Program-made: the position numbers and the translations under genes
Shown here: piece after piece, positions 1,408-4,672 of the stretch
How positions within the stretch are numbered: the stretch's first letter is position 1
Layout: each line of letters starts with the position of its first letter
DNA from: Aliarcobacter faecis
GTDB taxonomy: Bacteria > Campylobacterota > Campylobacteria > Campylobacterales > Arcobacteraceae
Direction of reading: 5' to 3'
NCBI RefSeq assembly: GCF_013201705.1
Contig: NZ_CP053837.1
Span: forward strand, 1,426,001-1,490,000
Length of the DNA: 64,000 bases
Notes under the pieces: generated by a model
What the model was told of the DNA's origin: nothing
Database searches by the model: none
What the model saw: only the letters and a program-made list of their open reading frames with translations

Positions 1408-1430
1408 CTTGTGCTTGCACTCTCTTCGAG
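1408..1430 (+). repeat. 23-nt insertion, copy 1
   Basis: This copy begins CTTGTGCTTGCACT and ends TCGAG. It interrupts the transposase between the Tyr codon TAT (1405-1407) and AAA ATC AAA (from 1431). Taking out exactly these 23 nt restores DAIHY-KIKDGG. It contains the palindrome GTGC-TT-GCAC and is followed immediately by AAAATC. No flanking bases are duplicated. Confidence 0.9.
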
Positions 1431-1750
1431 AAAATCAAAGATGGTGGGAAATATGTTTCAAAAGCTGTTTACACAGTTTTAGGTGTAAATATGGAAGGCA
1501 AAAAAGATATATTAGGACTTTACCTTTCAGAGTCTGAAGGAGCTAACTTCTGGCTTTCAGTTCTTACAGATTTAAACAATAGAGGCTTACAAGATATTTT
1601 AATTGCATCTGTTGATGGATTAAAAGGATTTCCAGAAGCAATAAAAACTATTTTTCCTAAAACAGAAGTGCAACTTTGTATTATTCATCAAATAAGAAAT
1701 TCTATTCGTTATGTTGCTGCCAAGAATCATAAAGAGTTCATGAAAGATTT

Positions 1751-1773
1751 CTTGTGCTTGCACTTTCTTTGAG
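1751..1773 (+). repeat. 23-nt insertion, copy 2
   Basis: This copy has the same orientation and length as copy 1 and begins with the same 14 bases. It differs from copy 1 at element positions 15 (T for C) and 20 (T for C). It splits a Leu codon (TT at 1749-1750, A at 1774), and its removal restores MKDLKPVYQ. It is followed by AAAACC, again without target duplication. Confidence 0.9.
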
Positions 1774-2125
1774 AAAACCAGTTTATCAAGCAGTTTCAAA
1801 AGAAGTAGCAGAAGAAGCACTTTTAGCCTTAGATGAAAAGTGGGGAAAACTTTATCCAATAGTGCTTCAATCTTGGAATAATAAATGGGAGAATTTATCT
1901 GTTTATTTCAAATACCCACCAGAGATTAGAAAAGTAATTTATACAACAAATATTATTGAATCAGTACATAGACAATTTAGGAAACTTACTAAGACTAAAG
2001 GTGCATTTCCAAATGAGAACAGCTTATTAAAATTGCTTTATATGGGAATGAAAAATGCTACAAAAAAGTGGAATATGCCAATGTGGAACTGGAACTTAAC
2101 ACTTTCACAATTAGCAATATTTTTT

Positions 2126-2148
2126 CTCACAGAGAGTGCAAGCACAAG
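2126..2148 (-). repeat. 23-nt insertion, copy 3, inverted
   Basis: The reverse complement begins with the same 14 bases as copies 1 and 2 and ends TGTGAG. It differs from copy 1 at element positions 19 and 20. On the plus strand it follows a T-run (2120-2125), so in element orientation it too is followed by AAAA. Removing it restores QLAIFF-EGRLDSELKI and the natural stop at 2179-2181. Confidence 0.9.
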
Positions 2149-2584: not shown

Positions 2585-4672
2585 TTAAAAACTTTCCCAT
2601 TCATCATTTGAAGTATTAGATTTTATTGAAGTAACTTTTGTATCTTTTTGAATAGATTTTACGAGTTTATCATTAGCATTATTACTACTTACAGATTTTT
2701 TAATACTTCTACTACCAACTATATTTATCTCTTTAGCCTTTACTTCATCTTTTCCTATAAACTCTTTAGAATTAGCATTACTTACAACCAATTTTGCTAT
2801 ATCATCTGTTACTACTGCTACATCTTGTGTTTGACTTGCTATCATAGCATTTTGTTGTGTTTGCTGATCTAATTGATTTACTGCATCATTAATTTGTTCA
2901 ATCCCCATAAGTTGCTCTTTACTTGCCATTTCAACATCTTTAATCAAATTTATAGTTTGGTCAATAGAGTTATTTAATCCTTCATAACCTTTTATCATAT
3001 TATTAGCTATATCTTTACCTTCATTTGCTTTCAAAGTTGCATTTTCAACAATATTTTTTATCTCTCTTGCTGCTTCTGCACTTCTACTTGCCAAATTCCT
3101 TACTTCTCCAGCAACAACTGCAAACCCTTTTCCAGCTTCCCCTGCTGTTGCTGCTTCTACCGCTGCATTTAAAGATAAAATATTTGTTTGGAATGCTATT
3201 TGATCTATTACACTTATTGATTCATTAATTAGATTTACTTGTTTATTTATTTCATCCATTGCTATTGTTGTTTGACTTGCTAACTTTTCACCTTGACTTG
3301 ATGCTTTTGTTATTTCATCTGAATATTGAGCCATTTTTGCAATATTTTCTGTATTATTTCTTATATTACTTGTTATCTCTTCTAATGCTGCTGCTGTCTC
3401 TTCCAAACTTGCTGCTGCTTCATTTGAACTTAGGTTCAATTTATCTACATTTGAAAGTAAGATATTTGAACTATTTTCTAAAGTCAATCCATTAGCTTTA
3501 TTCTCTTTTAGCATAGTTGTTATTGAATCACCTAGACTATTTACACCATTTGCTAATTTTAATAGATGCTCTTTTAAGCCTTTCTGATCTATTTTATTTA
3601 AATAATTATAACTTGCATATTGCTCTAATATTTTTAATACATTATCTATATTATTTTCTAAATTATTTGCCATCTTATTTAAAACTGATTTTAACTCCAT
3701 TAATGCTGGATTATTAACATTTAAGTTTAATCTTTGACATAAATCTCCTTGTTCGAACTCGCTTAATACTGCTATTGTCTCATCTATTAATCTTCTATCT
3801 TCTTCTATTCCCATTTTTGCTTTATCTATATTTGTATTTAAGACTTTTGCCATTTGACCAAATTCATCTTTTGAGTAATTCTCTATTTTATGAATTTCTT
3901 GTGTTTCTGCATTTAAATATCTAAAAAATTCATCTAAAGTATTTTGGAATATATTTAAAGGTTTAATAATAATTTTATTTAAAGATGGAACAATTATTAA
4001 AATTAACCCAATTGATATAATAATTGTTATTACAACTGCTATAAATAATAACTTATTAATATCATTATTTACATCTTCTCTTAATACATCTATCCCTTTT
4101 TTAATATCATCTGCATAAATTCCAGTAACTAAAACCCAATTAAACTCAGCAATATAAATAGATGATGCCATTTTTAATGTAATTTCTTTTGTAGTTGGAT
4201 TTTCATAATAATATGTTATATATTTTTGTTCTTTTGCATATTTAATTAAATCTTCTCTAAAAGGATAACCCTTTGCATCAGGTGCTTTTATATCTGTTTT
4301 TTGATTATTTAACTTTTGATTTGGATGAAATCCAAAATAGTACCCATCTTCTCTTTTTTCATAAGCAAAAAAATACCCACTTTTATCATCTAAATATCTT
4401 ATTCCATTTAAAAGTTCTATAACTTTTAATTTTGCAACCTCTATATCTTGCTCTTTTGCAATTATAGTGTCAATCATACTTTTAGCGACTTCAAATTCAT
4501 GTTTTATTAAAGCCTCTTTCTCTTTAGTAATTGCAACTTCAAATTTCTTTAAAGTCTCATTTAAAGTATTTTGAGTTCTGGAAAAATTGACACTAGAAAG
4601 TATAAAAATACCAATTATAAAAGGTATCATTGTTATTCCAAAAATCTTAACTTTTAATGAATTTATATTCAT
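2585..4672 (-). CDS. Cache-domain methyl-accepting chemotaxis protein
   Basis: This is a full-length transmembrane chemoreceptor of 695 residues. It has an N-terminal membrane helix (about 10-27), a periplasmic single-Cache-type sensor (about 35-200, with the motif [19 protein letters not shown]), a second membrane helix (about 210-232), HAMP-like helices, and a long cytoplasmic coiled-coil. The hairpin tip ([20 protein letters not shown]) contacts CheA/CheW. The ATG is preceded by AGGAG, which supports the start. The last residues, DEWESF, do not form the aromatic pentapeptide that tethers CheR in enterics. It converges on the IS256 copy. Small organic acids are common ligands of this sensor type, but the ligand is unknown here. 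Confidence 0.95.

Follow-up and report, generated by a model that had tools for sequence, protein, structure and literature searches.

Precise 23-nt insertions in Campylobacterota genomes point to an ultra-small, gene-less mobile element

The closest known system to the element described here is that of the cyanobacterial SDR elements, which it resembles in their reported size, dispersal, and structure. SDRs, the subject of work by Elhai et al. (2008; Genome Res 18:1484), are reportedly dispersed repeats of 21–27 nt that were inferred to be mobile, and are said to be structured, with compensatory changes, and to sit inside other repeats and minitransposons. We know of no enzyme for SDRs, and to our knowledge reports of mobile elements of ~20 nt come from a single further group of bacteria. 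The present element has in common with SDRs a length of ~23–27 nt for most copies, several dispersed copies per genome, and precise insertion, visible from empty sites in IS256-family genes, in palindromes of one genome (G031), and in Campylobacter jejuni prophages; compensatory changes occur here in hairpin 1 alone. It differs in belonging to another phylum, in having Y^AAA as target, in its presence in many genera, and in sites that are empty or filled at the level of isolates. The initial annotation held that no familiar insertion element matches, but the kind has a precedent in the cyanobacterial SDRs, reportedly mobile repeats of ~21–27 nt.

Two further systems bear comparison. REP sequences and REPINs are described (PMC8266576) as small palindromic repeats of 20–50 nt that can fold as single strands. 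Yeast mitochondrial GC clusters (PMC4478555) are flanked by direct repeats of AG or ACT, and the best studied of them (GC42) is 42 nt long. Like the element here, GC clusters are small mobile palindromes that carry no gene, move by a mechanism still under debate, and include merged copies; the element differs in the lack of a duplication and in its usual length of 23 nt.

The window, the whole 64,000-nt stretch of Aliarcobacter faecis DNA that was analyzed, has an IS256-family transposase gene on the + strand (892 to ~2181; the start is from the list of open reading frames and the last stop was placed by eye from the sequence). Three separately searched pieces of the gene match Transposase_mut (PF00872), and the frame is interrupted by a TAG codon and by three 23-nt blocks. 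Copy 1 (1408–1430, + strand) has TTC in the loop of hairpin 2, copy 2 (1751–1773, + strand) has a T at position 15 that is a C in the genome's other copy of this IS, and copy 3 (2126–2148, − strand) lies in the opposite orientation and has the loop variant TGT. All three are recognized by a pattern match together with, for copy 1, an exact 23-nt gain relative to relatives and, for copies 2 and 3, alignment with relatives. These coordinates are as first reported in the initial annotation, and variation among the blocks is, as it said, confined to positions 15, 19, and 20. With up to three mismatches, the 23-nt pattern has three matches in the window and none in 100 of 100 dinucleotide shuffles.

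The proposal that the blocks are true insertions is borne out by 11 IS256-family relatives from other genomes (L185–L195), in which the uninterrupted sites are shorter by exactly 23 nt: the alignment has a 23-column gap at site 2 in 11/11, at site 3 in 11/11, and at site 1 in 10/11 relatives. Next to the 3' end of each copy is a native target AAA (1431–1433 for copy 1 and 1774–1776 for copy 2 on the + strand; 2123–2125 for copy 3 on the − strand), assigned from family target statistics and from its presence at the junction of uninterrupted relatives (L185 at site 1, L190 at site 2, and both L189 and L192 at site 3); some other uninterrupted relatives lack the junction AAA. At the aligned empty sites, of IS256 relatives as well as C. 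jejuni prophages, there is no target-site duplication. In the one relative with a filled site 1 (L189, genome G012), the copy is a different loop variant and probably represents an independent insertion. In genome G030, another place in the same IS256 gene is filled, and the window has the corresponding empty site.

The genome has a second copy of the IS (~C1:1231358–1232721) that is 98.8% identical, has unrelated flanks, and contains the same three inserts, so these were in place before the IS was duplicated. Thus the inserts first counted as three events in this gene are real, but they are shared by both IS copies and predate the duplication. The in-frame TAG (1273–1275), correctly noted earlier, is likewise common to both IS copies, and it is absent from the 11 relatives. 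An IS copy with the three inserts was presumably moved in trans. Just 3' of the interrupted IS is a degraded fragment of an IS256 gene in the opposite orientation (2327–2499, − strand; ~71% identical), and the IS is flanked by genes at 162–770 and 2585–4672 that appear, from their sequence, to encode methyl-accepting chemotaxis proteins. At up to three mismatches, this 23-mer is limited in its own genome to the two IS copies. A 25-nt relative is located apart from them (G000 C1:1141121–1141149; L404, L424). It appears to break a reading frame, the product of which (...HDRFIIIDKKEIYHIGAS / KDLGKKWFAFSK...) is not transposase-like by eye.

Related copies are widespread in Campylobacterota. An 18-mer core was found in 15 of 60 genomes and the 23-mer, with at most one mismatch, in 34 of 397 Campylobacterota genomes with up to 12 copies per genome, whereas the same pattern read backwards was found in 0 of the 397. 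With a covariance model trained on 12 variants (E ≤ 1e-7), the family extends to 52 of the 397 genomes, which represent 22 of the 68 genera, with up to 16 copies per genome; the counts for core, 23-mer, and model each include the source genome. A 12-nt pattern is too short for this purpose, its matches being near control level in most genomes. In a scan of one genome per species across 84,980 species, 113 stretches matched; among the 80 that were listed, 74 are on contigs named as Campylobacterota. Six lie on contigs of metagenome-assembled genomes with the labels Nanoarchaeales, Archaeoglobaceae, Proteobacteria, or bacterium. Of these, the one labelled Nanoarchaeales is likely misbinned because its insertion contexts are common to it and Arcobacter. 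Copies are present on plasmids (7 of 72,556 records, all of Arcobacter, Aliarcobacter, or Sulfurovum), and phage records yielded one convincing match in a Campylobacter prophage and a weak one in a Microcoleus phage. Viral contigs had 0 matches to the 23-nt pattern. The copies collected, most of them by a 23-nt pattern, are mostly 23 nt long; some are 24–27 nt, and some are 42–52 nt with extra DNA in the loop.

The family consensus is CTT, hairpin 1 (typically GTGC-loop-GCAC), T, and CTC-TNY-GAG, followed by the AAA of the target. What is conserved in hairpin 1 is the structure and not the sequence. With a GTGC/GCAC stem, its loop can be TT, TC, TTT, CAT, TTC, AAA, GAA, TTTT, TTTA, or TAAA, and the stem itself can be replaced by ATGGC/GCCAT, GTGGC/GCCAC, GTGCC/GGCAC, GTTC/GAAC, GTTCG/CGAAC, GTGT/ACAC, or GTT/AAC. 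The structural search covered 90 of more than 400 loci, picked to include variants. Across 79 distinct aligned rows, hairpin 1 has 10 cells with changes on both sides versus 1.6 after shuffling, and none of 500 shuffles gave as many. This count leans toward structure since the alignment was fitted to it; the variants listed above can be read without any alignment. Two measures are weaker: 26 of 500 shuffles gave at least the 3 pairs with a both-side change, and 4 of 500 gave at least the 9 further pair types. Of the cells, 95.8% are paired, versus at most 55.6% after partners are slid. The CTC-TNY-GAG segment possibly forms a second hairpin that would have the variable positions 19 and 20 in its loop; its CTC/GAG stem has 0 both-side changes among the 79 rows. 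Counted over the three outermost pairs of hairpin 1, G.T wobbles favor a folded CTT...GAG strand over the other strand by 10 to 3; for the innermost pair the count is 4 versus 6. Rfam gave 0 matches up to E 1 over positions 700–2500 of the window, ruling out identity with an RNA of that collection.

Insertions are base-exact, lie mostly 5' of AAA and after a pyrimidine, and occur in either orientation relative to a gene. We grouped 152 of 159 rows into 107 context clusters, leaving out rows with more than two mismatches or with short flanks. Of the 107 clusters, 105 have an A at target position +1, 100 at +2, and 102 at +3, and 99 have a pyrimidine at position −1. Departures from AAA include GAG|AGC in Campylobacter and GAG|TCA. 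The initial annotation reasoned that many exact gains in unrelated genes would support a mobile unit and that confinement to this IS would favor a local event; the 107 context clusters in several genera, with base-exact empty sites, fall on the side of the former, and the family is not confined to the IS.

Empty and filled sites are found within single genomes and within a species. In genome G031, empty and filled forms of a palindromic repeat (CCAGAT|AAATCTGGCGTTCC) coexist. The palindrome found empty as CCAGATAAATCTGGCGTTCC also exists with either of two element variants inserted at one and the same base. Three more variants occupy CCAGT-type palindromes; the sole empty CCAGT-type copy with AAA has one extra C, and the gain there reads 22 nt. 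A 24-nt copy lies between cje0228 and cje0229 of a prophage in C. jejuni isolate 00-2818. Four other C. jejuni isolates and phage PC10 (five aligned records) have the empty site with near-identical flanks. The nine fully covered homologues listed (H13–H21, four of which are among those aligned) measure 826–828 nt versus 851 nt and are 23–25 nt shorter. The gain in the prophage is a within-species polymorphism.

Some target sites could themselves fold. At 19 of 107 sites, a stem of at least 6 bp spans the junction. Such stems were seen at 217 of 4280 control positions taken from the same loci and, for local controls within 200 nt, at 123 of 1528 (Fisher p 0.0014). The difference is absent for stems of at least 5 bp (26 of 107 sites vs 293 of 1528 local controls, p 0.12), and a rank test of stem length at target sites is not significant (p 0.18), while folding energy at target sites differs from controls (p 5e-7). 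Hairpin-loop targets are over-represented, for a minority of sites only, and a strong hairpin is lacking at most sites.

Copies are carried inside ISs and palindromic repeats, and they are present in a prophage and on plasmids. Within genomes, the carriers are copies of ISs, palindromic repeats, and MITE-like repeats. A simple rule flagged interrupted coding frames in 17 of 107 context clusters, a count from which short contigs may hide some. Pieces from seven of these 17 coding clusters were compared with Pfam: two matched IS1595, one IS256, one was IS3-like (HTH_21), one was an integrase, and two had no match. Transposase and integrase genes as insertion sites are what selection would leave and are not evidence of targeting. 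In another genome, two elements are in tandem, the second abutting the GAG end of the first (L337; G058 C26:14205–14233).

One region of G031 (C1:1659076–1667419; L315, L390–L393) is dense in CCAG...CTGGCGTTCC palindromes around a Y1_Tnp gene (1660708–1660983). This cluster looks like a REP/TnpA_REP system with repeats that act as landing sites for the 23-mer. By hand count, with dnaA positions as reference, copies are oriented against the replication fork in 16 of 21 listed for G031 (26 matches in all) and in 6 of 7 for G166, with mixed orientations in other genomes. Nothing is inferred from this orientation because the host repeats are themselves oriented or carry the copies: across much of G031, host palindromes without a copy share this bias, and the copies of G166 sit in repeats.

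We consider the blocks, with a probability of roughly 0.75, to be copies of an ultra-small non-autonomous mobile element that is moved by single-strand transfer and that also hitchhikes on ISs, palindromic repeats, prophages, and plasmids. That the element itself is mobile is close to certain. The single-strand step is the tentative part, to which we give a little under an even chance. An enzyme acting in trans would recognize the folded single strand of the element and would insert that strand at Y^AAA where the target DNA is single-stranded or forms a hairpin loop, in a reaction that would resemble that of HUH transposases (IS200/IS605 or REP). Conservative recombinases need a core shared with the target, and staggered DDE transposition duplicates the target. 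Junctions that have no core in common with the target and no duplication therefore argue against both, which leaves single-strand transfer of the HUH type or copying from RNA. The one-sided AAA would fit either. Hairpin-loop targets and a foldable element favor single-strand transfer over RNA copying.

As in IS200/IS605 derivatives, the target is not duplicated, one flank has a short and invariant target sequence (TTT when read on the complementary strand), and a hairpin lies near an end. The element differs in that the whole is 23 nt, in that several element-rich genomes have no Y1_Tnp match, and in that CTC...GAG lies directly at the cleavage point and appears to leave no place ahead of it for a guide tetranucleotide. 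By eye, a left guide of the IS200 type has no room on the complementary strand, and pairing with cleavage sites is not convincing. With REP and REPIN (TnpA_REP, RAYT) it shares the form of a small palindromic repeat that could fold as a single strand, but it lacks the conserved tetranucleotide that REPs have 5' of the palindrome, most often GTAG ((C/T)TT precedes hairpin 1 in the 107 contexts, two of which have C at position 2), is located inside genes as well, is not associated with Y1_Tnp, and in G031 sits inside REP-like palindromes. The element is neither a REP nor a MITE, and it does not look like a standard derivative of IS200/IS605. A MITE of a DDE transposon was rejected from the lack of duplication at aligned empty sites and from ends, CTT and GAG, that are not inverted repeats.

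Genes for candidate enzymes do not track with the element. Of the 20 genomes rich in the element, 9 have a match to Y1_Tnp (PF01797), as do 15 of the 36 used for comparison; the 11 element-rich genomes without a match are G012, G022, G211, G241, G253, G395, G405, G042, G391, G288, and G053. For reverse transcriptase (PF00078), the corresponding numbers are 4 of 20 and 9 of 36. The genomes for comparison had been picked as pattern-negative, and eight of the 36 (G006, G024, G027, G032, G247, G327, G415, and G420) gave one to four matches to the covariance model. With those eight moved by hand, there is still no association of either Y1_Tnp (12/28 vs 12/28) or reverse transcriptase (6/28 vs 7/28). 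Copies in a genome may have moved earlier or elsewhere, which weakens such tests of gene presence.

One rival to single-strand transfer is a route through RNA, in which the 3' end of a hairpin RNA is set against AAA and the RNA is reverse-transcribed from a TTT primer of the nicked target. Target-primed copying of an RNA ending in A would give a conserved AAA only 3' of the element, as is seen, and the distribution of G.T wobbles favors one folded strand; RNA intermediates are also said to have been proposed for the cyanobacterial SDRs in the 2008 work of Elhai. However, the AAA is native to the target, both orientations occur inside one gene, and PF00078 is no more frequent in element-rich genomes, with no match in G012, G022, G031, G211, G241, G253, and G395. 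We regard this route as unlikely.

The 23-mer could instead be the leftover of a larger transposon with ends CTTGTG and CACTCTCTNYGAG, such that the pair of ends moves and cargo is optional. Loop length is free across the family, copies of G211 have 22–29 extra nt between conserved ends, and copies of G402 are 42–45 nt, all of which would be expected of such ends. Yet there is no gene between the ends in the loci examined, where we found no gene-bearing, autonomous version but only longer loops and chance right ends, and most copies are 23–25 nt, though most were collected by a 23-nt pattern. In addition, some of the longer copies of G211, in IS1595-like genes, may be nested insertions. This origin is improbable as well. 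Several copies in that genome (L300–L309) have a related extra 22–29 nt (TTAGC...CTGATAAGAC) in the loop of hairpin 1, some of them in IS1595-like genes, and the extra DNA may belong to a further small element that lies within the first.

Removal of the blocks from RNA, or ribosomal bypass, for which mitochondrial byp elements are a precedent, would keep the transposase functional and would explain why an IS with three inserts is present twice in the genome at different places. Mobilization in trans accounts for the two copies, though, and both have an in-frame TAG, the inserts are in mixed orientation within the gene (+ + −), and interrupted coding frames were flagged in only 17 of 107 context clusters, where short contigs may hide some; bypass is very unlikely. 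Local copying of the 23-mer within this IS by recombination or slippage, suggested by three copies in 740 bp and by a 23-mer limited in its own genome (up to three mismatches) to two IS copies, is ruled out by the context clusters across genera, the prophage polymorphism in another genus, and the 25-nt relative elsewhere in the genome. A sequencing artefact is ruled out by independent assemblies, complete plasmid records, and the C. jejuni prophage records.

Four core strings of 17–18 nt had no occurrence in the literature text searched, and among the matches listed for the literature on Campylobacterota, titles and abstract openings mention no such element. The mobile element preferred here carries no gene and is among the smallest seen. 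A broader proposal, which we consider less likely than not, is that it represents phylum-wide mobile DNA near the lower size limit, with one or two mini-hairpins in ~23 nt and no autonomous partner. Its mover may be a housekeeping or replication enzyme that acts on single strands, and the element would then be a DNA counterpart of a viroid, living inside other mobile elements. How so small an element is recognized and moved becomes testable with these data, which comprise ~100 distinct contexts, empty sites that match to the base, a known target motif, a hairpin with covariation, and, in C. jejuni, a polymorphism within the species. Precise gains of 23–25 nt in genomes of Campylobacterota need not be sequencing errors.
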